From the IMG/VR virus record IMGVR_UViG_3300049783_001308, positions 1 to 23,423 of that record: a stretch of DNA of 23,423 bases; one strand, 5' to 3'. Under the pieces are notes generated by a model. It worked only from the letters and a program-made list of their open reading frames with translations. It was not told where the DNA came from and did not search any database. Made by a program: the position numbers and the translations under genes. This document shows positions 3 through 22,691 of the stretch, one piece after another (position 1 is the first letter of the stretch; each line of letters starts with the position of its first letter). Source of the DNA: a virus.

Positions 3-470
3 ACAGAAGAAAACACAGATATTGCTTTAGGTATACATAGTGGAGATCATTCAATATACCCAGATTGTAGACAAGAATTTAGAGATGCAGATGATGAAGC
101 TTTTAGATTAGGTAATTGGGAAGCTGAAAGAGTTAGCTATTGGACACCTTACCTACTAGGAGATAAATTTACTATTCTTCAAGATGGTGAGGTATTATGT
201 AAAGAATTAGGATTAGATTTTAATGAAGTTTATAAACGAACAATGACCTCCTATAAACCAATCCACATTTATGGTGGAGAGGGAGATAGCTGGTATGCCG
301 ATTATAAATCAGCTTCATCTGTAGAGAGAATAGAGGCGTTTATCAAGTTAGGTAGACCTGATCCATCACAATATGCTGATGGGAATGGTAAAGTAGATTA
401 CGAAACAGCTAGAATATATGTAGAGCAAATTCTTTCAGAATATGAAAAAGAACAATTAAATATAAAATAA
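3..470 (+). CDS. queC: 7-cyano-7-deazaguanine synthase (QueC), C-terminal part, 5' end outside window
   Basis: QueC uses ATP and ammonia to convert 7-carboxy-7-deazaguanine to preQ0, the last step of preQ0 synthesis. The frame is open from the left edge (first full codon at base 3) to the stop at 470, so about 155 C-terminal residues are visible; an internal ATG at 243 is not the true start. The family signature GIHSGDHSIYPDCRQEF lies near the left edge, and the end holds SSVERIEAF, matching the family's CVERxEAF block. Oddly, the four cysteines that bind zinc in typical QueC (one in TxxCY, then CxxCxxC before VER) are all replaced: the text reads TSYKP and YADYKSASSVER. The region still aligns well, so this looks like a divergent subfamily and not decay. 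It opens a gene run with queD, queE and folE downstream. Identity is confident; activity is inferred. Confidence 0.9.
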   Translation, partial: TEENTDIALGIHSGDHSIYPDCRQEFRDADDEAFRLGNWEAERVSYWTPYLLGDKFTILQDGEVLCKELGLDFNEVYKRTMTSYKPIHIYGGEGDSWYADYKSASSVERIEAFIKLGRPDPSQYADGNGKVDYETARIYVEQILSEYEKEQLNIK

Positions 471-471
471 T

Positions 472-762
472 ATGAGCGACGGAATAACAGAAGCAAGACG
501 AGGAACTTATTTTTCCAAAGGCAAATTACCAACCCATGATCCCCAAACCGGAGATAAAAATCCACATTACTTGGAAATGGGAGAAGAGGAAAATCCATAT
601 AAAGTAAAATATACCCCAGATCCAAAAATGCACCAATATATAAGTTTTACTAAATCACTAATCCGAATAATAGGGTATATTTTCCTCCCCTTTAATTTGG
701 TAGTTGCAACAGGAATTCTTATATTGAGCGAGTTAGTAGGAATAATAGAAGAATTAGTATAA
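472..762 (+). CDS. Small protein with a C-terminal membrane segment, function unknown
   Basis: A 96-residue protein that I do not recognise. The N-terminal two thirds is polar and rich in Gly, Pro and charged residues (for example GKLPTHDPQTGDKNPHY), while about residues 62-92 form a long hydrophobic stretch (IIGYIFLPFNLVVATGILIL and on) that would make one or two membrane passes. It begins two bases after the queC stop, in the context aaaataatATG, so it is probably co-transcribed with queC. It has no cysteines and no visible catalytic motif. Its position inside the deazaguanine gene run may be incidental; small membrane proteins are common passengers in phage operons. The gene call itself is well supported by tight spacing and the A-rich leader. 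Confidence 0.65.
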   Translation: MSDGITEARRGTYFSKGKLPTHDPQTGDKNPHYLEMGEEENPYKVKYTPDPKMHQYISFTKSLIRIIGYIFLPFNLVVATGILILSELVGIIEELV

Positions 763-780
763 AAATAAATAAATAAAATT

Positions 781-1035
781 ATGAATAAAGGAATAGTATA
801 TTTTAGCGCACCGTGGTGCCAACCTTGCAAAACATTAGGACCAATAATGGATGGTTTAGCAGGTGAAGGGATAAATCTTAAAAAAGTAAATATTGATTAC
901 GATACTTTATTTGCTCAAAAATACAATGTGAAAAACATCCCAACATTAGTTTTAACTGATTTAGAAGGAAATGAATTAGGGCGTAAAGTTGGAATTCAAA
1001 CTAGACAAGAAATTTTAAATTGGTATAATGGGTAA
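781..1035 (+). CDS. Thioredoxin-like protein
   Basis: An 84-residue single-domain thioredoxin-fold protein, about the size of phage T4 NrdC and shorter than bacterial thioredoxin (about 105 residues). The redox motif is WCQPC (Cys13 and Cys16) and the cis-proline loop is NIPTLV near residues 58-63; both are diagnostic. Its likely role is dithiol reduction in the cytoplasm, as a reductant for ribonucleotide reductase or another phage enzyme. No reductase partner is in the window. The start follows a run of aaataaataaataaaatt, an A/T leader with no Shine-Dalgarno sequence. The 3' end overlaps the start of the queD-like gene by eight bases, suggesting translational coupling. Whether it serves the deazaguanine enzymes is unknown. 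Confidence 0.85.
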   Translation: MNKGIVYFSAPWCQPCKTLGPIMDGLAGEGINLKKVNIDYDTLFAQKYNVKNIPTLVLTDLEGNELGRKVGIQTRQEILNWYNG

Positions 1036-1492
1036 ATTTCAATCAAGCAAAGTATTTGACGGATTTAGCACAGTGTTTCGTCAATGGAAAGCAGAAGATA
1101 CACACTGTAGATTTCTCCATGGTTATGGTATCTCATTCAAAGTATATTTTGAAGGTGAATTAGACGATAGAAATTGGGTTTGGGATTTTGGTGGTATGAA
1201 ACGTGCTAAAACTCAAATTGATGGTAAATCACCTAAAGAATGGATGGATCATATGTTCGATCACACAGTTATTGTTGCTGAAGATGATCCAGGAATGGGT
1301 GGTTGGAAGACAATGGATGGTTTAGGTGTAATTCAGTTAAGAGTTATTGAAGCTACAGGTGCCGAAAAATTCGCTGAATTTATCTTTAATAAATTAAACC
1401 CATTTGTATTAGAAGAGACTGATGGTAGGGTTAGGGTTACTAAGGTGAAGTTCATGGAACATGGAAAAAATGCAGCGTATTATGGAGAATAA
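1028..1492 (+). CDS. queD: 6-carboxy-tetrahydropterin synthase family protein (QueD-like), divergent zinc site
   Basis: QueD converts dihydroneopterin triphosphate to 6-carboxytetrahydropterin, the second step towards preQ0. This 154-residue protein keeps the family layout: a Cys-plus-LHG block (Cys27, His31), WVWDFGGMK (the family's vvDF..lK strand, residues about 50-58), FDHTVI (the LDHxxLN block), ATGAEKFAEFI (the PTxExxA block with its Glu), and a C-terminal VKFMEHG. Two of the three classic zinc histidines are changed: Phe17 stands where FxxxH has His, and Tyr33 replaces the second His of HGH. His26 next to Cys27 could supply a substitute ligand. From memory, a FRQW...HCxxLHGY form occurs in a recognisable group of homologues, so I read this as a subfamily trait. 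Neighbouring folE, queE and queC support the pathway assignment. Confidence 0.82.
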   Translation: MGKFQSSKVFDGFSTVFRQWKAEDTHCRFLHGYGISFKVYFEGELDDRNWVWDFGGMKRAKTQIDGKSPKEWMDHMFDHTVIVAEDDPGMGGWKTMDGLGVIQLRVIEATGAEKFAEFIFNKLNPFVLEETDGRVRVTKVKFMEHGKNAAYYGE

Positions 1493-2342
1493 ACAATTAA
1501 AAAGAATAGAAGATTATAATAAAACTCTACCAGTACTAGAAGTTTATACTGCAGTACAATCAGAAGGTAGTAGACAAGGTTACCCTACCATTGTAATTAG
1601 AACTACAGGGTGTACGCATCGCTGCTATTTTGGTGAAGGTGGTTGGTGTGATTCATTTTATACTTCAATTCATCCAGAAAAAGGAATATTTAAATTCCAA
1701 GATATTATCGATATGTACGATGCAAATCCTCATATTACAGAAATGATGTTAACTGGAGGTTCTCCTACTATGCACCCAGCATTAGTGAATGAATTAACTA
1801 ACTTTGCAGGTGAGAGAGGAATATTTGTTACTATTGAAACTGAGGGTTCTCATTATCTTCAAACTGATTATCCTATTAATCTATTATCTATTAGTCCCAA
1901 ATTTTCAAATAGCGTTCCGGTTATTGGTGCTATTACTCCAAAGGGGAAAGTTGCTGATGAGAAGATGATTAAAACCCATAATAGATTAAGATTAAACACT
2001 AGTGCTATTGCAGATTCAATCATTTACCATCACGATTTCCACATTAAACCCGTTATAGATAAAAATTTATCCATCCTCCCAGAAGTTGAAAAATTTATCG
2101 ATGAATTAGCAGATGCTTTAGTTGAGAGAGATTTTGGTTCTAGTGAGTGGGAAGATATTGCTTTTGATAAAGAAACAGTTTTAGAATATTTAAAAGAAAA
2201 AACATGGTGTATGCCAGCTGGGGATGATAGACCATCGTTAATGGAATCTTATCCTATAGTAATGAATATGTGTAGAGATAAAGGATATAAATTTACAGGT
2301 AGAGCACACATAATGGCCTTCGGGACAGAGAGATGTGTGTGA
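1461..2342 (+). CDS. queE: 7-carboxy-7-deazaguanine synthase (QueE), radical SAM, unusual Cys spacing
   Basis: QueE is a radical SAM enzyme that contracts the ring of 6-carboxytetrahydropterin to 7-carboxy-7-deazaguanine. Family marks are AVQSEGSRQGYP (the substrate loop, usually QGEGxxxG), RTTGC, LTGGSPTM (the GGEP motif that contacts SAM, here GGSP), SISPK, and a C-terminal GRAHIMAFGTERCV. The three cluster-binding cysteines are Cys51, Cys55 and Cys63, a CX3CX7C spacing where most QueE proteins have CX3CX2C; five residues (YFGEG) sit between the second and third cysteine. At 293 residues it is longer than the usual 210-240, with an added helical stretch around residues 205-260. The start is uncertain: ATG codons at 1461, 1470 and 1482 are all in frame and inside the queD end; 1482 gives the shortest overlap and the most family-like N-terminus. 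Confidence 0.88.
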   Translation: MEKMQRIMENKQLKRIEDYNKTLPVLEVYTAVQSEGSRQGYPTIVIRTTGCTHRCYFGEGGWCDSFYTSIHPEKGIFKFQDIIDMYDANPHITEMMLTGGSPTMHPALVNELTNFAGERGIFVTIETEGSHYLQTDYPINLLSISPKFSNSVPVIGAITPKGKVADEKMIKTHNRLRLNTSAIADSIIYHHDFHIKPVIDKNLSILPEVEKFIDELADALVERDFGSSEWEDIAFDKETVLEYLKEKTWCMPAGDDRPSLMESYPIVMNMCRDKGYKFTGRAHIMAFGTERCV

Positions 2343-2541
2343 TTGGTATAGGTTAGGGAAAATTCCAAACAAATTAAATATGATAGAACCAAAAAAAGAT
2401 TTAGAAACCGCAGAAAAAATAGTTGAAGCTGTTAATAAAACAACTAACGATTATGATGCTATAGAAAAAACTACAATAATCTTAAAAAGTTATTTAAATA
2501 AAGTAAGGAATGAAAGAGCTGATAAATCAAAAGGAAATTGA
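2335..2541 (+). CDS. Short unknown protein in the deazaguanine gene run
   Basis: A small lysine- and glutamate-rich protein (68 residues from the ATG at 2335) with no motif I recognise. It is mostly predicted helix, for example ETAEKIVEAVNKTT and AIEKTTIILKSYLNKVRNE. The start is ambiguous: the ATG at 2335 overlaps the queE stop by eight bases, but the in-frame ATG at 2380 follows aaacaaattaaat, an A-rich leader like those of neighbouring genes, and would give a 53-residue protein. The 3' end overlaps the phosphoribosyltransferase start by 32 bases, which points to coupled expression. No function is proposed. Confidence 0.55.
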   Translation: MCDWYRLGKIPNKLNMIEPKKDLETAEKIVEAVNKTTNDYDAIEKTTIILKSYLNKVRNERADKSKGN

Positions 2542-3016
2542 AATCCAAACCAAAATTATAGGTAAACAAATTGCTGATAATCATAAAGGAGATAAAACAC
2601 CAGTTATAATGGTGGGTTTACTTAACGGTTGTTTTGCGTTTTACAGCGATTTAGTTCGTGCTATGCCGATTGCGGTGGAATGTGATTTTATGCGCGTTAA
2701 ATCGTATACAAAGCGCAAACAAGGCGATATACAAATCACTAAAGACCTAGAAACAGCAATAAAGGGTAAGCATGTTTACATTGTAGATGATATTTACGAC
2801 ACAGGTAATACAATGGCTGCTGTTATAGAATATTTAGAAGTAAAACACCCAGCTTCCATTTCACTTGTAGCTTTGGTTACTAGAGAAACATCCCCAAAAC
2901 CTAAAAATCAAAAACTATATAAAGCTTTTACTATTAAAGATGAGTGGATAATTGGAATGGGGTGTAACGATGAAAATGGACACAACAGAAATTTACCTTC
3001 AATTTGGGCTCTGTAA
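2510..3016 (+). CDS. Hypoxanthine/guanine-type phosphoribosyltransferase
   Basis: A 168-residue type I phosphoribosyltransferase of the HPRT group, which transfers phosphoribose from PRPP to a purine base. The PRPP loop VDDIYDTG is at residues 92-99. Other HPRT marks are VGLLNGCFAFYSDLVRAM (residues about 35-52, the LKGGxxFxaDLxR block), VECDFMRVKSY, and a C-terminal DEWIIGMGCN with NRNLPSIWAL (the base-binding DEFVVGYG and YRNLPYI blocks). Length is close to the family's usual 175-185. It lies between queE and folE. In the toyocamycin pathway, ToyH, a phosphoribosyltransferase homologue next to FolE/QueD/QueE/QueC homologues, acts on preQ0; the same base could be the substrate here. That is inference: purine salvage is the plain alternative. 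The -33 element of the next promoter lies inside its last codons. Confidence 0.88.
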   Translation: MKELINQKEIEIQTKIIGKQIADNHKGDKTPVIMVGLLNGCFAFYSDLVRAMPIAVECDFMRVKSYTKRKQGDIQITKDLETAIKGKHVYIVDDIYDTGNTMAAVIEYLEVKHPASISLVALVTRETSPKPKNQKLYKAFTIKDEWIIGMGCNDENGHNRNLPSIWAL

Positions 3017-3056: not shown

Positions 3057-3752
3057 ATGGAAAATAAACGTAGAAAAATCCACGAAGAATTAGAAGTGGT
3101 ACAAACCGGATTCGCAAATGGTGTTGCTGAAGGTTTCCCCCTTAACAATGATGAGAAACTATTAATGATTAGTGAAGCAGAAGAGGCTTATGGTAAGTTT
3201 CTTGATGCCTTAAAATGTGATTGGAGAAATGATCCAAACTCAATGGAAACACCAAGACGTGTAGCAAAAGCATATGTTAATGATTTATGGGCTGGACGTT
3301 ACACAGCAATGTCTCCTATTACTTCATTCCCTTCAGATGGTTACGATGGCATTGTAATTGAAAGAAATATTCCACTTACATCTATGTGTTCTCACCACCA
3401 TCAAACAATTGGGGGTGTAGTTCATATTGGTTACATTGCTGGGGAAAGTGGTCAAGTAATTGGTTTATCAAAACTTAATAGAATCGTAGAATTATTTGGT
3501 CGTAGAGGTGCTATCCAAGAACAATTAACATCAGCAATTCACAATGCTGTAGATAAGATTACTGAAGGTAACTTAGGTGTAATTGTTACTATAGTTGGAA
3601 CACACAACTGTGTTTCATGTAGGGGTGTTAAGCATCAAGGGGCTGCAATGGTTACTACTAAAGCATCTTTAGCGTTTAGAGATGATAAAAATAATGCACG
3701 TAAAGAATTTTTTGACAGTCTGAAGATTAATAACGGAGGACATAATATTTAA
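3057..3752 (+). CDS. folE: GTP cyclohydrolase I (FolE)
   Basis: FolE converts GTP to dihydroneopterin triphosphate, the entry step for both folate and 7-deazaguanine synthesis. The zinc ligands are intact: Cys111 and His113 in MCSHHHQTIGG, and Cys185 in THNCVSCRGV. Also present are GLSKLNRIVELFGRR (residues about 136-150), IQEQLTSAIHNAV, and the C-terminal GAAMVTTKASLAF block. At 231 residues it is about the usual bacterial length (220-230). The first 30 residues are a charged extension. With the QueD, QueE and QueC homologues upstream, the probable role is supplying preQ0 precursor. It has its own promoter-like element just upstream, so it may be expressed more strongly or at a different time from the genes before it. 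The identification is secure. Confidence 0.95.
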   Translation: MENKRRKIHEELEVVQTGFANGVAEGFPLNNDEKLLMISEAEEAYGKFLDALKCDWRNDPNSMETPRRVAKAYVNDLWAGRYTAMSPITSFPSDGYDGIVIERNIPLTSMCSHHHQTIGGVVHIGYIAGESGQVIGLSKLNRIVELFGRRGAIQEQLTSAIHNAVDKITEGNLGVIVTIVGTHNCVSCRGVKHQGAAMVTTKASLAFRDDKNNARKEFFDSLKINNGGHNI

Positions 3753-3765
3753 ATAAATAATAGTT

Positions 3766-4281
3766 ATGAAAAAAGTAAAAGTACCATTCGTAGATGAAGT
3801 AGAGGAGTTTAATGAAGTTATGGGGAAAAGTTATCAAAACCGAACAATCCCAACCATCAACCCTAAAGATGCCCAGTTTGTAATTGATTTCATTCAAGAA
3901 GAGCTAGATGAATTAAAAGTAGCAGTGAAAGAAAAAAATATTGTTGAAATATTTGATGCTCTGCTTGATATTACTTATGTAGGTTTAGGTAATGGAGCTT
4001 TAGTATTTGGATTAAAGGATAAAATGTTAGATGGTTATGCTGAAGTACAAGCATCTAATATGTCTAAAATATGTCAAACATTAGAAGAAGCAGAAGAAAC
4101 GGTTAAATTACGCTCCGAACAACAAGGTGAACCTTGTCACCATTTAAGTGATGGTAAAGGCAAGTACGTAGTATATCGTAGTTCAGATAATAAAGTAATG
4201 AAATCAGTTAACTATTTCCGACCTAACCTCCACCAATTCTTTACTGAAGAAGAACTTATAAAGACATTCCTAAAAGATTAA
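3766..4281 (+). CDS. MazG-like / phosphoribosyl-ATP pyrophosphohydrolase-like NTP pyrophosphohydrolase
   Basis: A 171-residue all-alpha pyrophosphohydrolase; members hydrolyse (d)NTPs to the monophosphate and pyrophosphate. The metal-binding signature is IQEELDELKVAV (residues about 44-55) followed by VEIFDALLDITYVGLGN (about 65-81), which fits EExxE...ExxD. QASNMSKI near residue 95 is typical of the PRA-PH/phage MazG-like branch. After residue 115 a charged tail of about 55 residues (YVVYRSSDNKVMKSVNYF) extends past the core, perhaps a substrate lid. It sits between folE and the DNA polymerase, so it could shape the nucleotide pool, for example by lowering canonical dGTP if a modified nucleotide is used; this is inference. 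The start follows aaataatagttATG. Confidence 0.8.
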   Translation: MKKVKVPFVDEVEEFNEVMGKSYQNRTIPTINPKDAQFVIDFIQEELDELKVAVKEKNIVEIFDALLDITYVGLGNGALVFGLKDKMLDGYAEVQASNMSKICQTLEEAEETVKLRSEQQGEPCHHLSDGKGKYVVYRSSDNKVMKSVNYFRPNLHQFFTEEELIKTFLKD

Positions 4282-4304: not shown

Positions 4305-5990
4305 ATGAGTTTTAAAAAAGCATTTGCCCAAAGGTTAAGTGGAAATACTTACTTAATTCATCTGTGGGATGATGGAGGTTATCAAAAAATAGAATGGGTC
4401 AACCAAGCTTATATCGAGTGTGGTGAAGCTGATGCTACCCATCTAGGGTTAAATGGTGAACCACTCCAAAAAACCCGAAACTGGAAATCTGATAATACTA
4501 GACTTCATTTCCACGATATGACTCCATACCAAAAGTTCCTAGTTGAAAAATATGGCATTAATGATGAACCTTCAACTACACATCGAGAAGTATTCTTTGA
4601 TATTGAAACTGAAATGGGAGATGCTCTTACTGAAGAATATATCAAATCAGCACCTAAAAAAGTAACATCAATTGCGTGGTATGATAAACAGGTAGATTTA
4701 TGGGGAGTTCTTATATTAGATGCAAAGGGTCAACTCCAACACACTAAAGCAAAAAACAAGGAAATTATCCCATGTCGCACTGAGGATGAATTGTTAATGA
4801 AATTCCTAGAAAAATTTAGGGAAATTGATCCTGATATTTTAGTAGGGTGGAATAGTGATTACTTTGATATCCCTTACTTATATTATAGAATCTGTAATGT
4901 TTTAGGTGAAGATATTGCTCGTTACTTATCCCCAATAGGTAAAGTTAGAGAAACACCTTGGTATAAAGATCAATACATTCAGATAGCAGGTGTTGAATCA
5001 CTTGACTATATGCGCTTACATAAGAAATTTAGTTGGGCTGATGAACCATCATTTAAATTGGATGCTATTGGGGAGAAATATGCTGGGTTAAATAAAATAG
5101 AATACGATGGTAATTTAGATAAATTGTTTGAGGATGATCCATTAAAATTCATTCAATATAACTTTAGAGATGTTGAAATACTTAAAGTATTAGATGAAAA
5201 ATTAGAGTATTTATCTTTAGTAAAAAATCTAGCACATAAGGGAAAACACAATTATAGTGAGGTTTACGCTAATACCAAAACCCAAGATGGAGCAATTTCA
5301 GCTTATCTATTAAGTAAAGGTATCATACCACCTGCTAAAGAACGTAACCCACTATCAAAGAAAAATTATGCTGGTGGGTATTTGTTTTGTCCTAAAGCTG
5401 GTATTTACAACTATGTATTTGATGAAGATTTAACTTCACTATACCCTTCAATTATTATGACTATTAATATTGGTAAAGAAACAATGGTTGGTAGGATTAT
5501 AGATGCTGATGATAGAAACAATCGATTAGGGTTAAATGACTTACATAGAAGAGACCCAGAGGAAGAGTTAATAGTTGAAAATGCAAAACGTAGACGCACT
5601 AAAGTCCCAGTAGCAAAACTAATTAGAATGATTGAAGAAAATGAATTATCAGTTTCTGCTAATGGTGTTTTGTTTAGAACAGATAAAGAATCAGTATTAT
5701 CAACCATCCTAAAAAAATGGTTTGATGAGCGTGTGCTATATAAAGATAAAATGAAGGAAGCATATCAGGCCGGAGATAAAGAAATGGGAGCCGGGTTTCA
5801 TATGAAGCAGTATACAATGAAGATTTTATTAAATTCACTCTATGGTGCAACCGCTTTAGGAAGCTTCAGGTATGGAAACGTAATTCTAAGTGAAGCTATA
5901 ACACTCTCAGGACAGCGCATAATCCAGGAGAGTGCTTTAACAGCAAATCGTCATATAAACAAGGTTATTAAAAACGGTATAGAATTATGA
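4305..5990 (+). CDS. DNA polymerase family B (gp43-like), N-terminal part: exonuclease plus motifs A and B
   Basis: The first half of a split family B replicative polymerase, 561 residues. The proofreading exonuclease is complete: Exo I FFDIETE (near residue 98), Exo II GWNSDYFDIPYL (near 183) and Exo III YNFRDVEIL (near 286). The palm/fingers carry motif A DLTSLYPSI (near 375) and motif B KILLNSLYG (near 506). Motif C is absent because the reading frame stops at 5990; it is found at the start of the next gene. The two together total about 871 residues, close to T4 gp43 (898). The stop and the next start share the ATGA at 5987-5990, which would couple translation so that the halves are made together and can assemble. 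The clamp gene follows, and the clamp-loader genes lie further downstream. Confidence 0.93.
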   Translation: MSFKKAFAQRLSGNTYLIHLWDDGGYQKIEWVNQAYIECGEADATHLGLNGEPLQKTRNWKSDNTRLHFHDMTPYQKFLVEKYGINDEPSTTHREVFFDIETEMGDALTEEYIKSAPKKVTSIAWYDKQVDLWGVLILDAKGQLQHTKAKNKEIIPCRTEDELLMKFLEKFREIDPDILVGWNSDYFDIPYLYYRICNVLGEDIARYLSPIGKVRETPWYKDQYIQIAGVESLDYMRLHKKFSWADEPSFKLDAIGEKYAGLNKIEYDGNLDKLFEDDPLKFIQYNFRDVEILKVLDEKLEYLSLVKNLAHKGKHNYSEVYANTKTQDGAISAYLLSKGIIPPAKERNPLSKKNYAGGYLFCPKAGIYNYVFDEDLTSLYPSIIMTINIGKETMVGRIIDADDRNNRLGLNDLHRRDPEEELIVENAKRRRTKVPVAKLIRMIEENELSVSANGVLFRTDKESVLSTILKKWFDERVLYKDKMKEAYQAGDKEMGAGFHMKQYTMKILLNSLYGATALGSFRYGNVILSEAITLSGQRIIQESALTANRHINKVIKNGIEL

Positions 5991-6919
5991 AACATATAGA
6001 AGATACTCCGTGGTGGATTTGTGATCCTGAAGATACTAACTATGTAGCCTACTCAGATACAGATTCTATTTATATTCATGCAGAACCATTATTAAGACAT
6101 TTATATCCTAATTTTGAGGAAATGTCCAGTGAAGAAAAAGATGATAAACTAGAAGTTATTGCTTTAAAATATCAAGATATTATTACGGATTCTTATGGGG
6201 ATTTAGCCACAAATTGTTTTAATGCAAAAGGTACACATAGATTAGAAATGAAGACTGAAGCCGTTATTCGTGCAGCCTATTTTAGAGCAACTCGAAGATA
6301 TGCCCAGTGGATTACTAAGCAAGAAGGTATTAAAAAAGAAACTCTTGATGTAAAGGGTCTTGAGTTTAAGAAAGCTAATTTCCCCCCTGTACTAGGTAAG
6401 TTTTTTCATAAAGTATTAGTAGACGTGTTGAAAGGCACTAACCAACCTGAAATCGATGCTCGTGTCAAAGTATTTAGACAGCAAATATTAGACGGTACTA
6501 TACCGTTAACTGAGTTAGGCAATCCAACATCAGTCAAAACTTTGAATAAATATACTGAACGTAAAGCTCGTGCTGGTGAAATGATGACAACCGTGGCTAA
6601 AGGAGCACCTGCAGCTGTAAGGGCAGTTATTAGACATAATGACTTATTGAAGTTTTGGGGGTTAAATGGTAAACACAGTTATATTACTCAAGGTGATAAA
6701 GTTAAATGGATTTACTTAAAACCAAACCCATACCACATCGATGCTGTTGCTTTTTTAGACTTTGATTTAGCAGATAAAATTCGTACATTCATCGAGGAAT
6801 ATGCTGATCGTAAGAAAATTTTTGAATCAATCCTACTGAATAAAGTTGAAGGGTTCTATGGAGATTTAGAGTGGTCTCTCTCTTTGAATCCTTATCGTGA
6901 AATGTTTTTTAACTTATAA
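5987..6919 (+). CDS. DNA polymerase family B (gp43-like), C-terminal part: motif C and thumb
   Basis: The second half of the split polymerase, 310 residues. Motif C, AYSDTDSIYI, with the two catalytic aspartates lies at residues about 21-30, close to the N-terminus. RATRRYAQWI (near residue 105) corresponds to the KKRY/KxY block that grips the primer-template, followed by VKGLEFKKANFP (the GLE..r.d.p thumb block). The C-terminal tail ends in YREMFFNL, whose hydrophobic residues resemble the short clamp-binding tail of T4 gp43, and the clamp gene starts nine bases later. Neither half can polymerise alone because the active site needs motif A from the first and motif C from the second. There is no inserted endonuclease gene at the break, only a 4-base ATGA overlap. 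Confidence 0.92.
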   Translation: MKHIEDTPWWICDPEDTNYVAYSDTDSIYIHAEPLLRHLYPNFEEMSSEEKDDKLEVIALKYQDIITDSYGDLATNCFNAKGTHRLEMKTEAVIRAAYFRATRRYAQWITKQEGIKKETLDVKGLEFKKANFPPVLGKFFHKVLVDVLKGTNQPEIDARVKVFRQQILDGTIPLTELGNPTSVKTLNKYTERKARAGEMMTTVAKGAPAAVRAVIRHNDLLKFWGLNGKHSYITQGDKVKWIYLKPNPYHIDAVAFLDFDLADKIRTFIEEYADRKKIFESILLNKVEGFYGDLEWSLSLNPYREMFFNL

Positions 6920-7752: not shown

Positions 7753-8178
7753 ATGAGTACATTATTTTATGAAGAGACTATGTCTCCCTTCGATATTTTA
7801 TATCGAAATTATTTCAAAGCAGATGAAGCATTCGCTCCTGCACTAAATTCAAAACAACCCCACCCCTTAGACATCTATCACGATAAAGACGGTCTCTACT
7901 TTGAAATTGCCTGCACAGGTCTTAGCAAAGAAGATATCCAACTTAAAGTTGAAGGAGATGTTCTATCAATTATCTATCAAAAACCTGATGAAAATGAACC
8001 TAAAGATTATTCGGGTTATATTTACCACGGTTTAAGTAGAAAATCCTTTAATTTAGGGTACAAAATTGTACCTAAGTTTGATTTAACTAAAATCACAGCA
8101 GAAATGGAAAATGGGTTATTGTTAATAACTCTCCCACTTTCAGTAGAATTAAAACCAAAATCAATTAAAATTAAATAA
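7753..8178 (+). CDS. Small heat shock protein (Hsp20 / alpha-crystallin family)
   Basis: A 141-residue ATP-independent holdase chaperone that binds unfolding proteins and forms oligomers. The alpha-crystallin domain spans about residues 38-130: it opens with PLDIYHDKDGLYFEIACTGL (the typical P.vdi.e....y.v.a.lPG block), continues with SKEDIQLKVEGDVLSI, and contains the hallmark AEMENGLLLITLP (A-x-x-x-NGLL-x-I-x-LP). The C-terminal tail KSIKIK supplies an IxI/V-like anchor for oligomer assembly. The N-terminus (STLFYEETMSPFDILYRNYF) is the short variable arm. Small heat shock genes are frequent in marine T4-like phages; next to groES/groEL it suggests a folding module for phage proteins such as virion subunits. 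Confidence 0.93.
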   Translation: MSTLFYEETMSPFDILYRNYFKADEAFAPALNSKQPHPLDIYHDKDGLYFEIACTGLSKEDIQLKVEGDVLSIIYQKPDENEPKDYSGYIYHGLSRKSFNLGYKIVPKFDLTKITAEMENGLLLITLPLSVELKPKSIKIK

Positions 8179-8195
8179 AAGTTTTCACACAATAA

Positions 8196-8227
8196 CGTGT
8201 CCTAGCGTAAATTTATTCGTATATTAC
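8196..8227 (+). promoter_or_regulatory. Putative promoter of the GroES/GroEL operon
   Basis: TTCGTATATT at 8216-8225 is identical to the -7 region of the folE promoter, and the next bases (CGGTATAAATAAAAAAAGTTAT) repeat the folE leader almost base for base. The -33 box is the weakest of the set: CGTGT stands at 8196-8200 where the others have TTTGG. It lies in a 78-base gap after hsp20. Genes served would be the 105-residue unknown, groES, groEL and perhaps the following unknown. Confidence 0.6.
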
Positions 8228-8256
8228 GGTATAAATAAAAAAAGTTATCTAAAATT

Positions 8257-8574
8257 ATGAGTTGTACTATTATTAAAGATCCCGCAATTAATCCATTTTT
8301 CATTTCCAAAGATCAGTATTGTTATACTGTAATGGAAACAATTACACCTGACAAGAAAAACCTAGGTAGGTTTGGTAATAAAGGTAATAAAAGTGAAGGT
8401 GAGAATTATGAAAAAGCATTAGGTCATTTCAGCACCTTACCAGGTGCCTTAAAGATGATTGTTAAGTCTAAAGTAGATTTAAAACCCGAATATGATACTA
8501 TCCAAGATTATATAGGAGAGATCCGAAATCAACAGGATGAAATGAAAGAATTATTAAATAAAATAGGAATATAA
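8257..8574 (+). CDS. Unknown phage protein, first gene of the GroES/GroEL operon
   Basis: A 105-residue protein with no function I can assign. The N-terminal part (about residues 1-35) looks like beta strands (NPFFISKDQYCYTVMETI), followed by a flexible Gly/Asn/Lys-rich loop (GRFGNKGNKSEGENYEKAL), then HFSTLPGALKMIVKSKV and a helical C-terminus (EIRNQQDEMKELLNKIGI). It has no membrane segment and no obvious catalytic motif. Its promoter-like element is strong, and groES begins one base after its stop (taatATG), so it is co-expressed with the chaperonin. Whether it is a chaperonin cofactor or a passenger cannot be told from sequence. Confidence 0.75.
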   Translation: MSCTIIKDPAINPFFISKDQYCYTVMETITPDKKNLGRFGNKGNKSEGENYEKALGHFSTLPGALKMIVKSKVDLKPEYDTIQDYIGEIRNQQDEMKELLNKIGI

Positions 8575-8575
8575 T

Positions 8576-8869
8576 ATGAAGTTAGAAGCAATGTTCGATG
8601 CGGTTATCGTAAAACCGATTAAGGAAGAGGAAACAATGTATGGAAATATCATTGTGCCTGATTTAGGAAAAGACAAAAATGAAAAAGGAGAAGTAGTAGC
8701 TGTAGGACCAGGTAAATTCTCAGTCACCGGAGATCATTTCCTTAAAACTAATGTTGAAATTGGTGATGTAGTTGTTTTACCAACTATGGGGTTTACAAAG
8801 TTAGAACATGATGGTGAGGAATATTTCGTAGGACCAGAGGCAATGATATTAGCAAGAATTAAAAAATAA
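8576..8869 (+). CDS. groES: Co-chaperonin GroES (Cpn10)
   Basis: A 97-residue GroES homologue, the lid of the GroEL folding chamber, which forms a heptameric ring. The N-terminal strand FDAVIVKPIKEEE matches the family's DrVlVkp.e.e block. The mobile loop that docks on GroEL is ETMYGNIIVPDL (residues about 19-30), with IIV in place of the usual IVL hydrophobic triplet. The roof region follows as GEVVAVGPGK (about 39-48), and the C-terminus is YFVGPEAMILARIK (typical y.i..e.dilai). Length equals that of bacterial GroES. It is followed six bases later by groEL, the standard operon order. Phages that carry both subunits can form a complete chamber without the host's. Confidence 0.95.
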   Translation: MKLEAMFDAVIVKPIKEEETMYGNIIVPDLGKDKNEKGEVVAVGPGKFSVTGDHFLKTNVEIGDVVVLPTMGFTKLEHDGEEYFVGPEAMILARIKK

Positions 8870-8874
8870 ATAAA

Positions 8875-10485
8875 ATGTCAGTAGATTTAAGAAAAGAGAT
8901 AAAATTTGGAGCAGAAGCTCGAAAACAATTAATGGATGGTATTGATATCCTAGCGGATGCCGTAGTAAGCACATTAGGACCTAATGGTAGAAATGTATTA
9001 ATTGACCAATCCCCGGCACCACCACAATCAACAAAAGATGGTGTTACAGTAGCAAAAAATGTGATTGTAGATGGTCATATTCAAAATCTCGGAGTTCAAG
9101 TAGTTAAAGCTGCTGCTACCAAAACCGCCGATAAAGCAGGTGATGGTACAACAACTTCCACTTTACTAGCACGTGAGATGATCAAAGAAGGTTTATCACA
9201 TCTTAACAATGGAGCAAATGCTACTGAAGTTAGACGTAGCATTGATAAAGCAGTTAAAGAAGTAATTAGTGTTCTTAAAGCTAATTCCGAAGATATATCA
9301 TCTGAAGACCAACTAGAACAAGTAGCTACTATATCAGCCAATAACGATCCAGAAGTAGGAAAGTTAATTGCTACTGCAATTGATAAAGTAGGTAGAGATG
9401 GTGTAGTTCACATTGAAGAAAGCAAATCAGGTGAAACTTATCTTGAAACTGTAGAAGGTATGCAATTTAATCGTGGTTATAAATCCCACTTCTTTGTTAC
9501 TGACAATAACTCAATGTCTTGTAAATTAGACGATGTTTATGTTTTAATTGCAAATCACAGTTTTACACAGGTAAAAGAATTATTGCCTATTTTAGAACAA
9601 GTATCAGCAACTGATAAATCACTATTAATAATTGCCGAAGATATTGAAAATGAAGCATTAGCAACATTGATTGTTAATAAAGCCCGAGGTGCTTTGAAAG
9701 TAGCAGCAGTTAAAGCTCCAGATTTTGGAGATCGTCGTAAACTTATCTTAGATGATATAGCAGCCGTAACCGGTGGTGTAGTATTTGACAAAGATAAAGG
9801 TATGAAATTAGATAAATTTAGCTGGGATTGGTTTGGTCAAGCTCGTGCAGTCACAATTACAAAAGAAGAAACTACAATTGTAGATGGTAATGGTGCTGAA
9901 GAAGATATTGAATTAAGAGTATCTGAACTTCAAAATCAAATCGAAGAATCGAAAACCCCATTTGAAACTGAACAATTACAAAATCGTTTAGCCAAAATGG
10001 TAGGTGGCGTTTCTATAATTCACGTAGGTGGTTATAATGAAACTGAAATGAGAGAAAAGAAAGATAGAGTTGATGATGCCTTGCATGCTACAAAAGCTGC
10101 ACTTGAAGAAGGTATTGTACCTGGTGGTGGGGCAGCTTTACTAGCCGCACGTAAAGGAATAACATTAGGTAGCATAGGTGCTGGTATTGTGTATAAAGCT
10201 TGTGGTAAACCATTCGAACAAATCCTAGTAAATGCTGGTAAATCATCAGTAGAAGCTCAGATAGTTGGTTATAGTTTAGATGAAACAAATTCATGGTTAG
10301 GTTATAATATCAAAACCGAAGAAGTTGTAGATATGAAAGAAGCAGGTATATGCGATCCAGCTAAAGTAACACGTACAGCATTAGAAAATGCAGCCTCAGT
10401 AGCAGGAACATTACTATTAACCGAATGTGTTTTAGTTCCCCACCCTGATAAGAAAGATCCTACACCTGATGAAATGCATTATTAA
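8875..10485 (+). CDS. groEL: Chaperonin GroEL (Cpn60)
   Basis: A 536-residue GroEL homologue, slightly shorter than E. coli GroEL (548). ATP-site motifs are intact: TLGPNGRNVLID (residues about 32-43), GDGTTTSTLLA (about 88-98, with the catalytic-site Asp of GDGTTT), VDDALHATKAALEEG (holding the Asp equivalent to E. coli D398), and PGGGAAL. The apical domain contains GMQFNRGYKSHFF, where E. coli has GMQFDRGYLSPYF, so most of the GroES/substrate-binding surface is kept. The equatorial C-terminus, YNIKTEEVVDMKEAGICDP and RTALENAASVAGTLLLTE, is standard, but the flexible Gly-Gly-Met tail is missing; the protein ends in PTPDEMHY. It is preceded by groES. The likely role is folding of phage capsid or other proteins during infection. 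Confidence 0.97.
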   Translation: MSVDLRKEIKFGAEARKQLMDGIDILADAVVSTLGPNGRNVLIDQSPAPPQSTKDGVTVAKNVIVDGHIQNLGVQVVKAAATKTADKAGDGTTTSTLLAREMIKEGLSHLNNGANATEVRRSIDKAVKEVISVLKANSEDISSEDQLEQVATISANNDPEVGKLIATAIDKVGRDGVVHIEESKSGETYLETVEGMQFNRGYKSHFFVTDNNSMSCKLDDVYVLIANHSFTQVKELLPILEQVSATDKSLLIIAEDIENEALATLIVNKARGALKVAAVKAPDFGDRRKLILDDIAAVTGGVVFDKDKGMKLDKFSWDWFGQARAVTITKEETTIVDGNGAEEDIELRVSELQNQIEESKTPFETEQLQNRLAKMVGGVSIIHVGGYNETEMREKKDRVDDALHATKAALEEGIVPGGGAALLAARKGITLGSIGAGIVYKACGKPFEQILVNAGKSSVEAQIVGYSLDETNSWLGYNIKTEEVVDMKEAGICDPAKVTRTALENAASVAGTLLLTECVLVPHPDKKDPTPDEMHY

Positions 10486-14333: not shown

Positions 14334-15764
14334 ATGAAAGAAGGTTACATAAAAAAAGAAGATAGAAAGAAAATTCTACTTCTAACGGATGATATTAGAG
14401 TACATTCGGGAGTTGCTCAAATTGGTAGGGAAATGGTTATTAATACCTCCCACCATTATAATTGGGTTCAATTAGCTGGAGCTGTAGAACATCCTGAAAA
14501 AGGTAAGAGGATAGATATTTCTGAGGATAATAACAAACAGGCAAATATTAACGACTCATCAGTGATTTTATATCCTGTAGATGGGTATGGGAATCCTGAA
14601 GTGTTAAAAACGGTCATTGAAATAGAAAAACCTGATGCTATTTTCTTAATCACAGATCCTAGATACTTTACATGGGTTTTCCAAATGGAAAATCAAATCC
14701 GTAAAACCATCCCAATAGCTTATCTAAACATTTGGGATAGTATGCCAGCACCTATGTATAATAGAGAATTTTATGAATCTTGTGATGCATTGTTTGGTAT
14801 TTCTAAACAAACAGTAGGTATTAATCAGATAGTTTTAGGTAAAAAGGCAGATAATAAAATTATTAAATATGTTCCCCACGGTTTAAATAATAAAATGTTT
14901 AAACCTATGGATGAAACAGATAAAGAACTTCAAGAATTTAAAAAACACATATCAAGAGGTAAAGAATATGATTTTACTCTACTATTCAACTCACGAAATA
15001 TTAGACGTAAATCCATCCCAGATACCCTTCTAGCATGGAAATTATTTTTAGAAAAACTCCCTAAAGAAGAAGCTGAAAAGTGTTTATTTGTTCTACACAC
15101 CGAACCTGTGAGTGATCATGGAACTGATTTAGGAGCTGTTATTGAATTCCTTTTCCCTGATGGAAAATCAAATGTGATTATTTCAAACGCTAAATTACCT
15201 ACAGATAAAATGAATTTATTGTATAATATCGCGGATGGTATTATTTTACTCTCATCAGCTGAAGGTTGGGGGTTATCATTAACTGAAGCCTTATTAACAG
15301 GTACTCCTATTATTGCAAACACTACAGGTGGGATGCAAGATCAAATGAGATTTGAAGATGAAAATGGTGATTGGATTAATTTCTCCCCAGATTTCCCATC
15401 AAACCATAGAGGTACTTACACAAAACATGGAGAATGGGTATTACCTGTATACCCAACCAACCTATCAATTGTAGGTTCACCTCAAACCCCATATATCTAT
15501 GATGATAAGTGTTCTTTTGAAGATGCTGAAAATAAAATTATGGAACTTTACAAAATGGGTAATGACAAAAGAAAAGAAATTGGAAAAGCAGGTATGGAAT
15601 GGGCTTTAGGAGATGAAGCAGGTTTCACATCCGAAAAAATGTCAGGTCGTATTATTGAAGGGATGGATGAATTATTTGATACTTGGGTACCAAGAGAAAA
15701 ATTCGAATTCTTAAAAGATACAGATTTTGAAAAAAGAGTTTTAAAACATAAAATAATTTACTAA
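14334..15764 (+). CDS. GT-B glycosyltransferase (GT4-like)
   Basis: A 476-residue glycosyltransferase of the GT-B fold, retaining GT4-like. The C-terminal nucleotide-sugar domain shows LFNSRNIRRKSIPDTLLAW (residues about 215-235), MNLLYNIADGIILLSSAEGW (about 293-312) and the EX7E motif in AEGWGLSLTEAL (Glu310 and Glu318), followed by TPIIANTTGGMQDQM. The N-terminal acceptor domain begins KKILLLTDDIRVHSGVAQIG (about 12-31). It transfers a sugar from a nucleotide donor to an unknown acceptor in the cytoplasm; no signal peptide or membrane helix is seen. It starts the glycan cluster and is followed with no gap by a second GT-B gene. The acceptor may be a virion, lipid or other glycan. Confidence 0.87.
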   Translation: MKEGYIKKEDRKKILLLTDDIRVHSGVAQIGREMVINTSHHYNWVQLAGAVEHPEKGKRIDISEDNNKQANINDSSVILYPVDGYGNPEVLKTVIEIEKPDAIFLITDPRYFTWVFQMENQIRKTIPIAYLNIWDSMPAPMYNREFYESCDALFGISKQTVGINQIVLGKKADNKIIKYVPHGLNNKMFKPMDETDKELQEFKKHISRGKEYDFTLLFNSRNIRRKSIPDTLLAWKLFLEKLPKEEAEKCLFVLHTEPVSDHGTDLGAVIEFLFPDGKSNVIISNAKLPTDKMNLLYNIADGIILLSSAEGWGLSLTEALLTGTPIIANTTGGMQDQMRFEDENGDWINFSPDFPSNHRGTYTKHGEWVLPVYPTNLSIVGSPQTPYIYDDKCSFEDAENKIMELYKMGNDKRKEIGKAGMEWALGDEAGFTSEKMSGRIIEGMDELFDTWVPREKFEFLKDTDFEKRVLKHKIIY

Positions 15765-17087
15765 ATGAAGAATACATTTTACATAAGTTGTCCTATAGAT
15801 ACTTACTCAGGATATGGAGGTCGCTCGCGTGATTTCGTCAAGGCACTAATTAAAAGTGACAAATATGATGTCAAAATTATATCTCAAAGGTGGGGAAGTA
15901 CACCTTTTGGTTTTATTGATGATCATTTAGAAGATTGGGGATTTTTAAAATCCCACATACCCACATTAGAAGGTGGTAAACTTCAGGAACAACCAGACAT
16001 ATGGTGTCAGGTTACAGTACCCAATGAATTTCAAAAAGTTGGAAAATATAATATTGGTTTAACTGCTGGAATCGAAACTACAGCCTGTGCTTCTCCTTGG
16101 ATTGAGGGGTGTAATAGAATGGATTTAATCCTAACTTCTTCTACTCATTCAAAAAACGTATTTGAAAAAACTAGCTATAATGGTAAAGATCAAAATGGTA
16201 ATGATTTTCCCCTCAAATTAACAACCCCTTGTGAAGTTCTTATTGAAGGTGCGGATTTAGATGTTTACAAACCATTAAAAAATACTGAATTTAAATCCTC
16301 AACATTAAAAGAATCAATAAACTCAATCCCTGAATCATTTGCTTACTTATATGTGGGACATTGGATGCAAGGCGAAATGGGAGAGGATAGGAAAAATGTA
16401 GGATTGTTAATTAAAGCATTTTATGAATTATTTAAAAATAAAAAAGGTAAAAAACCTGCATTAATCTTAAAAACAAGTGGTGGGGGTTCTAGTTATATAG
16501 ACCGGAATGAAATGCAGAAACGTATAGCTTCTATTAGAGAAAGTGTCCCATCAGATGATTTACCTAATATTTATCTACTCCACGGTGAATTCTCTGATAG
16601 GGAAATGAATGAGTTATATAACCATTCTAAAGTTAAGGCTATGGTCAATTTAACTAAAGGTGAAGGTTTCGGTCGTCCACTACTAGAATTTAGTCTATCA
16701 AACAAACCCGTTATAACAACTGGGTGGTCAGGTCAAATTGATTTTCTTCAACCAAAACTTTCAGGTTTAATGGGTGGCAAATTAACTAAGATACACCCAT
16801 CAGCCCAACAGAAAGATATGTTAATTGAGGGATCTGAATGGTTTAGTGTTGATCATAACCATATAGGTCACTTCTTTAATGATGTAATCACAAACTATAA
16901 AGAATGGAAGGTAAAAGGAAAACGTCAAGGGTACTATAGTAGAACTAATTTTAGTTTCCAAAACATGGAAGAACAATTAGATAGTTTATTATCAAAATAT
17001 GTACCAGTATTATCTAAAAAACTAGAACTCAAATTACCAAAATTGGGGGGTAGTAAATTACAATTACCAAAATTAAAAAAAGTATAA
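15765..17087 (+). CDS. GT-B glycosyltransferase with a lysine-leucine-proline repeat tail
   Basis: A 440-residue glycosyltransferase of the GT-B fold. It begins FYISCPIDTYSGYGGRSRDF (the glycine-rich loop of the acceptor domain), includes GLTAGIETTACASPWIEGCN (residues about 99-118), and in the donor domain YLYVGHWMQGEMGEDRKNVG (about 190-210) and the EX7E motif EGFGRPLLE (near 300-308) followed by SNKPVITTGWSG. It starts the base after the previous stop, so the two transferases are produced together. The last 22 residues are odd: KLELKLPKLGGSKLQLPKL plus a short basic end, a near-duplicate KLxLPKL motif that looks like a linear binding or membrane-surface tail. The next gene overlaps as TAATG. 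Confidence 0.87.
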   Translation: MKNTFYISCPIDTYSGYGGRSRDFVKALIKSDKYDVKIISQRWGSTPFGFIDDHLEDWGFLKSHIPTLEGGKLQEQPDIWCQVTVPNEFQKVGKYNIGLTAGIETTACASPWIEGCNRMDLILTSSTHSKNVFEKTSYNGKDQNGNDFPLKLTTPCEVLIEGADLDVYKPLKNTEFKSSTLKESINSIPESFAYLYVGHWMQGEMGEDRKNVGLLIKAFYELFKNKKGKKPALILKTSGGGSSYIDRNEMQKRIASIRESVPSDDLPNIYLLHGEFSDREMNELYNHSKVKAMVNLTKGEGFGRPLLEFSLSNKPVITTGWSGQIDFLQPKLSGLMGGKLTKIHPSAQQKDMLIEGSEWFSVDHNHIGHFFNDVITNYKEWKVKGKRQGYYSRTNFSFQNMEEQLDSLLSKYVPVLSKKLELKLPKLGGSKLQLPKLKKV

Positions 17088-17545
17088 TGGATAATTTAAT
17101 TATATGTGATCGTTGTGGGTCTGATGCCTGCTATGTTAATGAAATCAATGAAGAAATAAAAAACTACCAATGTATGGGTTGTGGTTTTATTACTAACTCT
17201 TTAATGAAAAAAGATTCACAATTCCTTGAGGAACAGATGGAACTCCTCCCTAACCTATATAAGGAATTGATGGGAGAAGACAAGGAAGGTAAAGTTTGGA
17301 TGCCTGCAACAATAAACATACCAAAACAAGGTATGGTGTTTGCAAATGGTACAAGTGCTGAAAATTGGAATTGGGGAGCTGTATTATCAATACCAGTTAA
17401 GGAAGATGAAAGAGAGAAATATCCAATACCTGGGAAAACTGGGGAGTTTTATGATAAACGAATGGATATGGATACTATTAAGGAATTTAAAGAAGGTGAC
17501 TTCTTAGAGGCTTTAGATTATATTGGGGTTTTTAATGAATCCTAA
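17087..17545 (+). CDS. Zinc-ribbon protein of unknown function
   Basis: A 152-residue protein whose first 35 residues hold a zinc ribbon: CDRCG (Cys7 and Cys10) and CMGCGF (near residues 29-34), two CxxC knuckles typical of transcription- or nucleic-acid-linked zinc ribbons. The remainder (ELLPNLYKELMGEDKEGKVW, MPATINIPKQGMVFANGT, GEFYDKRMDMDTIKEF) is a small alpha/beta domain that I do not recognise from a defined family. It is coupled to the upstream transferase by TAATG and is the last gene before the next promoter-like element. Proteins of this kind occur in many marine phages, mostly unnamed. Zinc binding is likely; the partner is unknown. Confidence 0.7.
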   Translation: MDNLIICDRCGSDACYVNEINEEIKNYQCMGCGFITNSLMKKDSQFLEEQMELLPNLYKELMGEDKEGKVWMPATINIPKQGMVFANGTSAENWNWGAVLSIPVKEDEREKYPIPGKTGEFYDKRMDMDTIKEFKEGDFLEALDYIGVFNES

Positions 17546-17577
17546 TTTGGTCTCCCACAATAAATTTCGTATATTCA
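17546..17577 (+). promoter_or_regulatory. Putative promoter of the second glycan operon, near-leaderless
   Basis: TTTGG at 17546-17550 and TATATT at 17570-17575, 19 bases apart, with TTCG before the TATATT. All of it lies in the 36-base gap between genes. As at 14334, the -7 region runs straight into the start codon (TATATTCACACTATG), with the ATG at 17582 six bases after TATATT, implying a leaderless or nearly leaderless transcript. Confidence 0.65.
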
Positions 17578-17581
17578 CACT

Positions 17582-18208
17582 ATGATAAAAATTAGTTATG
17601 CCATACCAGTTTGTAATGAACATATTGAAATCCAACGACTATTAACATTTTTGTTAAAGCATAAAAGACACCAAGATGAAATTATAATTCTGTTTGATTC
17701 AAAAAATGGTACTCCTACAGTAAAGAATTATTTACATTCAAAATCAGTTAATAATGATTTTATTTGGTTTCCTTATGAGTTTGATGGTCATTTTGCTAAT
17801 ATGAAAAATAAACTAACAACTCAATGTAGTGGAGATTACATATTTCAAATTGATGCAGATGAGATTCCTAATGAAATATTAATAGAAAATATACCAGCAA
17901 TTCTATCAGAAAACCCAGACAACGAAGTTTATTATGTACCTAGGGTAAATACTGTATCTGGACTTACTCCCGAACATATTAAAAAATGGAATTGGAATGT
18001 TGATGCTGAAGGTAGAGTCAATTATCCTGATTACCAAATGCGCATCTATAAAAATAACGGTGAAATTAAATGGAGAAATAAAGTACATGAAGTATTAGAA
18101 AACCATAAAAGTTTTTCGGCACTACCCTCTATGGAAGAACTATCTCTTTACCACCCAAAAGATATTAAACGACAAGAAAAACAAAACAGTTACTATAACA
18201 CATTATAA
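17582..18208 (+). CDS. GT-A glycosyltransferase, family 2-like
   Basis: A 208-residue inverting glycosyltransferase of the GT2 type. The N-terminus ISYAIPVCNEHIEIQRLL gives the first nucleotide-binding strand and loop. IIILFDSKNGTP follows, and GDYIFQIDADEIPNEIL (residues about 81-97) contains the DAD form of the metal-binding DxD motif. The later WRNKVHEVLENH block (about 160-171) resembles the acceptor/catalytic segment of WaaE/SunS-like transferases, where the H-E pair is conserved. At 208 residues it is shorter than most GT2 proteins (230-300) but has all core motifs. It opens the second glycan operon and overlaps the epimerase by TAATG. Donor and acceptor cannot be read from sequence. 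Confidence 0.87.
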   Translation: MIKISYAIPVCNEHIEIQRLLTFLLKHKRHQDEIIILFDSKNGTPTVKNYLHSKSVNNDFIWFPYEFDGHFANMKNKLTTQCSGDYIFQIDADEIPNEILIENIPAILSENPDNEVYYVPRVNTVSGLTPEHIKKWNWNVDAEGRVNYPDYQMRIYKNNGEIKWRNKVHEVLENHKSFSALPSMEELSLYHPKDIKRQEKQNSYYNTL

Positions 18209-19221
18209 TGGAAGAACAAAAAACAATACTAATTACTGGGGTTGCAGGTTTACTAGGAAGTAGATTAGCAGATTGGATAATTAAAACATCCCCAGAATAT
18301 AAAGTAATAGGAATTGATGATTTAAGTGGGGGTTTTAAAGAAAATATTAACCCTAAGGTAGATTTCCACCAATTGAATTTAGTAGATGGTGCGATTGATA
18401 GCGTATTTAATGCGTATAAAATCGATTATGTCTATCACTTCGCAGCCTATGCCGCTGAAGGTCTATCTCCGTTTATCCGCGCATATAATTATGATAATAA
18501 TTTAAAATCCACAGCACGTATAGTTAATGAGTGTATCAAACACGATATTAAAAGACTGATATTTACATCAACTTTAGCAGTATATGGACATGGGTATGGT
18601 GGGGTTTTTGATGAAAGTCAACAACAAGCACCAATCGATCCTTATGGAGTAGCAAAATACGCCTGTGAAATGGATATTCAAATTGCAGGTGAGCAACACG
18701 GATTAGATTGGTGTATTATCAGACCACATAATGTATATGGTATTAAACAAAATATTTGGGATAAATACAGAAATGTATTAGGTATCTGGATGTACCAACA
18801 TTTAAATGGCCAACCAATGACTATTTTTGGAGATGGTGAACAAACCCGAGCATTTAGTTTCATAGACGATTCAATCGAACCTTTATTTAATGCTGCCATA
18901 AGACCTGAAGCTAGTAAAGAAATTATTAATTTGGGGGGAATCGAGGAAGTATCTATTAATCAAGCAAGTAAAATTTTATGTAAAGTTATTGGTGAAGATA
19001 TAGATGTTCAACATTTAGAAGGTAGACATGAAGTAAAACAAGCAATTCCAACCTACCAAAAATCAATGGATCTGTTAGGTTTTGAATATAAAACTACAAT
19101 GTACAGTGGATTAACACGAATGTGGGAGTGGGCAAAAAATCAACCTATGAGGGATAGATTTGAGTGGAGTGAGTATGAATTAGATAAAGGAATTTATAGT
19201 TTCTGGGAAAATAAAAAATAA
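18208..19221 (+). CDS. NAD-dependent sugar epimerase/dehydratase (GalE-like, extended SDR)
   Basis: A 337-residue extended short-chain dehydrogenase that acts on nucleotide sugars. The Rossmann motif is TGVAGLLGS (GxxGxxG, residues 11-17), then GIDDLSGG, YHFAAYAAEGL, and the catalytic set: Ser/Thr in LIFTSTLAVYG (about 112-122) and YGVAK (Tyr146, Lys150). RPHNVYGIKQ is the substrate-side loop usual in UDP-glucose 4-epimerase relatives, and the C-terminal part (SINQASKILCKVIG) completes the fold. Length is typical. It would supply an isomerised or deoxygenated nucleotide sugar to the transferases around it. 4-Epimerase versus 4,6-dehydratase cannot be decided by eye. Confidence 0.9.
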   Translation: MEEQKTILITGVAGLLGSRLADWIIKTSPEYKVIGIDDLSGGFKENINPKVDFHQLNLVDGAIDSVFNAYKIDYVYHFAAYAAEGLSPFIRAYNYDNNLKSTARIVNECIKHDIKRLIFTSTLAVYGHGYGGVFDESQQQAPIDPYGVAKYACEMDIQIAGEQHGLDWCIIRPHNVYGIKQNIWDKYRNVLGIWMYQHLNGQPMTIFGDGEQTRAFSFIDDSIEPLFNAAIRPEASKEIINLGGIEEVSINQASKILCKVIGEDIDVQHLEGRHEVKQAIPTYQKSMDLLGFEYKTTMYSGLTRMWEWAKNQPMRDRFEWSEYELDKGIYSFWENKK

Positions 19222-19226
19222 AAATT

Positions 19227-19865: not shown

Positions 19866-19867
19866 TT

Positions 19868-22690: not shown

Positions 22691-22691
22691 T

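Follow-up and report, generated by a model that had tools for sequence, protein, structure and literature searches.

Altered metal-binding motifs in QueC, QueD and QueE of a phage 7-deazaguanine locus and of bacteria in which they are the only preQ0 enzymes found

Introduction

Phage modification of DNA with 7-deazaguanines relies on FolE, QueD, QueE and QueC together with DpdA, and yields modifications that vary between phages (dADG, dPreQ0, dPreQ1 and dG+) (PMC6884629). In that work, phage QueC, QueD and QueE were taken as isofunctional by clustering, the words "zinc" and "motif" each having 0 occurrences in the text, and the QueD and QueE of phage 9g were reported to complement E. coli. Canonical QueC (PF06508 cluster 1) combines an ATP loop and the motifs YxQxH, VPxRN and YPDC with a Cys4 zinc knuckle, C(x)8CxxCxxC; the knuckle tyrosine (Y189 in E. 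coli) is reported to be essential and zinc is stated to be required for function (PMC13329287). QueD is recognized by a PTPS fold, the catalytic Cys27, Asp70-His71 and Glu110, and three zinc histidines (16, 31, and 33), and QueE by the radical SAM signature CX3CX2C, with a Cx14CxxC subtype (TIGR04508) as a precedent for odd cysteine spacing. Here, we describe a viral locus in which all three enzymes depart from these signatures; no description of a cysteine-less QueC, of the odd QueE spacing or of the variant QueD was found in the open-access literature.

Gene content of the locus

The window, meaning the whole 23,423-base virus record IMGVR_UViG_3300049783_001308, opens inside queC, the N terminus of which lies off the contig in a reading frame still open at the contig end, and continues through the genes listed in Table 1, including that for FolE, which catalyzes the first step of the pathway and whose zinc site is intact by sequence, with the Cys and His zinc residues present, as an earlier note on this DNA had stated. 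The gene set is shared with the described phage pathway, in which DpdA is adjacent in relatives of the window and QueF is found in some. The 23-kb window breaks off within queC and contains no DpdA. In a full-length relative (L097), the order is DpdA-QueC-Trx-QueD-QueE-HPRT-FolE, with DpdA directly upstream of queC and the thioredoxin gene in the same place as in the window, which makes it most likely that the contig end has cut DpdA off from the window. DpdA occurs in nine of nine large related phage records and QueF in one of them, and the presence of DpdA beside the variant enzymes in this viral clade connects them to the known 7-deazaguanine DNA-modification pathway. A MazG-like gene also follows folE in Flavobacterium phage immuto and Cellulophaga phage phiST. 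The window would then be the left end of the 7-deazaguanine DNA-modification locus of a Bacteroidota-type phage, in which FolE, QueD, QueE and QueC would make preQ0 and the DpdA transglycosylase, predicted from relatives to be encoded just off the contig, would insert it into phage DNA. We consider it highly probable that this is a DNA-modification locus running the canonical reactions to ordinary preQ0, with a QueC knuckle free of zinc and a QueD metal site that has been rearranged.

Table 1. Positions of genes and metal-site codons in the window
Feature	Position	Strand	Evidence
queC, C-terminal 155 aa	3..470	+	PF06508 E 2e-8, PHROG 1550; alignment with QueC of E. coli and phages
Unknown ORF	472-762		
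Thioredoxin (WCQPC), between queC and queD	781..1035	+	PF00085 E 5e-14; synteny
queD	1028..1492	+	PF01242 E 1e-14, PHROG 2389; alignments; AF2 model
QueD F17 codon	1076-1078		
QueD H26 codon	1103-1105		
QueD C27 codon	1106-1108		
QueD H31 codon	1118-1120		
QueD Y33 codon	1124-1126		
queE, overlapping queD end	1461..2342	+	PHROG 2076 E 2e-44, Bsubt_queE E 9e-14; alignment
QueE Cys codons	1611-1613, 1623-1625, 1647-1649		
HPRT-like phosphoribosyltransferase, same cluster	2510..3016	+	HGPRTase E 3e-42; synteny
folE (GTP cyclohydrolase I)	3057..3752	+	PF01227 E 2e-40
MazG-like pyrophosphohydrolase, after folE	3766..4281	+	PF01503, PHROG 671
Family B DNA polymerase, first ORF	4305-5990		
Family B DNA polymerase, second ORF	5987-6919		PF20286, C-terminal part
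Hsp20-like protein and apparent GroES, GroEL genes	7753-10485		
Apparent glycan gene run	14334-23381		
GNAT-methyltransferase fusion	21530-22690		

QueC without its zinc cysteines

The loss of all four QueC zinc cysteines, claimed in the earlier note, holds both on direct reading and in the alignment: the zinc-knuckle region (residues 246-329) is cysteine-free, with TSYKP at 246-260 and YADYKSASSVER at 294-329, and C(x)8CxxCxxC is missing from the window's protein and its clade, with one stray Cys (L222). The fragment matches PF06508 and keeps YPDC and the tyrosine of T[S/C]Y; its N-terminal motifs lie beyond the contig end, and in full-length relatives SGGxDS, YxQxH, VPxRN and YPDC are all present. 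Among the cysteine-less QueC proteins sampled (>80 diverse sequences), SGG, YxQxH and YPDC are kept in essentially all and the knuckle tyrosine in 83 of 83, whereas the window's lineage has the full VPxRN, which reads TAGRN or TSGRN in some others. In a few Cysteiniphilum-group proteins (L265, L500, L505), YPDC reads YPDT, so that this cysteine is gone too. An AF2 model (pLDDT 92.8) of L082, the closest relative of full length, matches B. subtilis QueC (Z 19.3, rmsd 2.8, 186 residues) and places two short strands and a helix at the knuckle position. The variant has the fold, ATP loop, YxQxH, VPxRN, YPDC and the essential knuckle tyrosine in common with the canonical enzyme but lacks its Cys4 motif, two short strands being predicted instead (PMC13329287). 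By the published signature the window's QueC is, on its sequence, not a canonical QueC, and we predict that it works like one: the normal ATP/CDG active site would be used, and the model of its relative suggests that the zinc knuckle has given way to a metal-free beta-hairpin.

The QueC tree, a quick tree built without the knuckle columns and containing several long branches, requires the cysteine state to have changed three times, a number that its starred branches force; it indicates that the cysteines were lost at least three separate times, with the core catalytic motifs kept each time. A third cysteine-less type (L387-L420) reads TDYNG...NEWG...NPA..LR, its first Cys being replaced by Asp, and accompanies a three-histidine QueD. 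We also considered whether cysteines are supplied elsewhere in the protein. A CX4CX3C insert near the N terminus occurs in L082, L011 and 36 others of 208 relatives (38 in all, the closest ones among them), but is missing from the other 170 and from the bacterial forms and hence offers no general substitute for the knuckle cysteines. Because the lost site has been described as needed for function (PMC13329287) and hosts can supply preQ0, the variant might be catalytically dead or a regulatory relic, with the host providing the preQ0; we hold this very improbable, given that the catalytic motifs have been long conserved across the diverse sequences above and that six bacterial genomes with a complete set of queuosine genes, described below, have no other QueC.

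QueD and the position of its histidines

The QueD residues F17, H26, C27, H31 and Y33 were read directly, in agreement with the earlier note. Aligned with E. coli QueD, the protein has F17 where His16 is expected and Y33 in the place of His33, leaving His31 as the only one of the three zinc histidines. Cys27, D78 and H79 of the Asp-His pair and the catalytic glutamate E144 are all conserved; the PTPS fold and the full catalytic set are present. An AF2 model (pLDDT 94.7) agrees with E. coli QueD (Z 13.7, rmsd 1.9, 116 residues). Relative to both E. coli QueD (4ntn) and QueD2 (7v0f), the fold, catalytic Cys, His31, Asp-His and Glu are common to all, whereas the variant has Phe for His16, Tyr for His33 and a new His26. 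The latter had been put forward as a possible replacement ligand. Among 178 dereplicated sequences, His26 adjoins the catalytic Cys27 where His16 is lost (127 of 131 His16-less sequences, although these are not independent events because His16 loss is a single transition on the QueD tree), whereas most His16-bearing sequences lack it. A few F16 sequences (SAR86) are without His26, and two Bacteriovoracaceae sequences combine His16, His26 and Tyr33 and, from their residues, are a possible intermediate. These patterns suggest that position 26, beside the catalytic Cys, has most likely taken over a metal histidine from position 16, making His26 a putative metal ligand, and that Tyr33 may stand in for the other ligand; the metal itself may possibly have changed. 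The variant would be a naturally occurring test of which residues bind the catalytic metal. It is also chromosomal in many alphaproteobacteria and other bacteria, in some as the sole PTPS. Microvirga and Aurantimonas genomes (loci L267, L289 and L300; genomes G008, G009 and G010) carry the variant QueD and no full QueC by PF06508.

The repeated loss of the QueC zinc site and the change of two QueD zinc ligands could also reflect enzymes rebuilt for less zinc or another metal, for which the QueD paralogue QueD2 of Acinetobacter baumannii (solved structure 7v0f), presumably linked to zinc shortage, would be a parallel. We think such a zinc-saving adaptation unlikely, since FolE, encoded in the same cluster, has intact zinc residues, and in some lineages a QueC without the cysteines occurs beside a QueD that retains all three histidines.

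A lengthened loop in the QueE cluster motif

QueE has the three cluster cysteines at the spacing first noticed, C51-X3-C55-X7-C63, and not as CX3CX2C. Its core is similar to that of known QueE (structure 5tgs, E 9e-8, in addition to the matches in Table 1), and QueE equivalog models match it below their cut-offs. With QueE proteins, including the Cx14CxxC subtype, it shares the three cysteines, TGG[S/A]P and the C-terminal H; in TIGR04508 the extra residues lie between Cys1 and Cys2, whereas here 7-8 residues, and in related phages as many as 38, separate Cys2 from Cys3. The three cysteines would still hold the cluster, the loop from the second to the third being longer. Across phage QueE proteins, this loop measures 2, 6, 7, 8, 11, 18, 35, 36 or 38 residues (L171, L200, L184, L400, L206 and others), and a range of 2-38 residues is unusual for a radical SAM cluster loop. 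The protein had also been described as 50-80 residues longer than most: it is longer, but the excess is mainly a window-specific insert of ~30 residues near the C terminus, and part of the extra length stems from an uncertain start codon, relatives starting at the equivalent of MKRIEDYNK and being ~257-268 aa long in the alignment.

Association of the three variants

The three motifs are essentially fixed across ~160 related viral loci, which argues against chance. In this clade, QueD reads G[FY]ST.FRQW...[ST]HC..[LVIF]HGY, QueE reads CTHRC[YFWH]FGEGGWCD, with one extra residue in a few, and QueC reads TxTSYKP...[SA]DYKSASSVER. Viral loci, isolates and bacteria carry the same set, bearing out the statement in the earlier note that similar-looking homologues exist in other genomes. 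Its proposal of a distinct lineage with three variants is borne out insofar as they co-occur in one clade, but they are also found separately. In a tally over all loci, variant QueD stands with a four-Cys QueC and a CX3CX2C QueE in 16 loci (BcepGomr among them), a second cysteine-less QueC (Iggy type) with canonical QueE in 3 loci, and the third (TDYNG) with canonical three-histidine QueD in 13 loci. The QueE proteins found with the cysteine-less TSYKP QueC have spacings of 7, 8, 11, 35 and 38. The QueD change is far wider than those of QueC and QueE, occurring also beside normal QueC and QueE and in many bacterial chromosomes. A single coordinated change, as had been proposed, is rejected by these mixed combinations together with the QueC tree and its at least three changes of cysteine state. 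Judged from the motifs, the changes can occur apart and differ in age, and they are joint only in the window's clade.

Variant enzymes as the only apparent preQ0 route in some bacteria

In a genome scan, the variant set turned up in Cysteiniphilum, Facilibium and Fangia, where its chromosomal neighbours are housekeeping genes as judged from translations (ispD-like and enolase genes in L269, an rlmE-like gene in L286). In each of six bacterial genomes there is a single QueC and a single PTPS, both of the variant type, together with one Tgt, QueF and QueA; weaker PF06508 matches in these genomes are in much longer frames and cover the ATP-binding part only. Among 33 genomes of the Cysteiniphilum/Fangia order, the motif read directly identified 12 species with cysteine-less QueC, one of whose genes has an in-frame stop (G053); all 12 have one QueE, of the CTHRC type, and 11 have the variant QueD motif beside the cysteine-less QueC. 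Two other genomes of this order have a four-cysteine QueC. QueF and Tgt act on preQ0/preQ1, so variants that are the sole enzymes beside them point to ordinary preQ0, and this bacterial gene content is the strongest evidence that ordinary preQ0 is what the variants make. It likewise supports a predicted conversion of CDG to preQ0 by the variant QueC. The earlier suggestion of an altered substrate or product runs counter to it, as Tgt, QueF and QueA accompany the variants where these are the only QueC, QueD and QueE. From the same gene content, these bacteria presumably use the set, as their only preQ0 route, for tRNA queuosine.

The bacterial QueC sequences lie inside the phage clade, three rows grouping together at 100 (a starred branch) and nested in a ten-row group at 94, which suggests that QueC was exchanged between Cysteiniphilum-group bacteria and phages. 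We tentatively propose, as a reading that we regard as close to evenly balanced, that a whole preQ0 pathway is built on a QueC free of zinc and a QueD whose metal site has moved (His26/His31/Tyr33). On this reading, nothing else would supply tRNA queuosine in a free-living Francisella-related family, and at least the QueC of the pathway would have been exchanged with phages using it for DNA modification. The zinc knuckle has been described as a QueC hallmark and zinc as required; a bacterial family apparently dependent on a cysteine-less QueC, with three independent losses, would show the site to be structural and replaceable. These bacteria would provide a setting in which a phage enzyme set is easy to assay, through queuosine in tRNA, and the zinc-free QueC and rebuilt QueD site would be parts worth testing.

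Phage relatives and the product

Phage immuto carries the same three motifs plus DpdA and QueF, and phage phiST the variant QueD and QueE, a search for QueC in phiST giving no match. Modified bases are said to have been measured in both by Cui in 2023. The motif changes in all three enzymes of one clade, the known variety of phage modifications and the phiST gene content might indicate that changed QueC or QueD chemistry makes a different 7-deazaguanine, for example by stopping at the carboxy or amido form. We find this improbable in view of the intact active-site motifs, the QueF of immuto and the bacteria in which the same set is the sole one beside QueF and Tgt; ordinary preQ0 is most likely the product. 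The complementation by phage 9g enzymes has no bearing on the variants because the 9g motifs are canonical. Hosts such as P. aeruginosa have their own preQ0 pathway, so a preQ0-derived base in the lineage of Pseudomonas phage Iggy, which has a cysteine-less QueC and an F16/Y33 QueD, gives weaker support and no proof that Iggy's QueC works. That base, as relayed in PMC11008142 and PMC11945000, is dPreQ0 (Olsen 2023).

Other genes in the window

Beyond the cluster, a family B DNA polymerase gene is split into adjacent ORFs with a four-base overlap. An Hsp20-like protein gene lies with apparent GroES and GroEL genes, and the glycan gene run includes glycosyltransferase-like, epimerase-like, WbqC and aminotransferase-like genes. 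A further ORF encodes a GNAT-methyltransferase fusion (Table 1).
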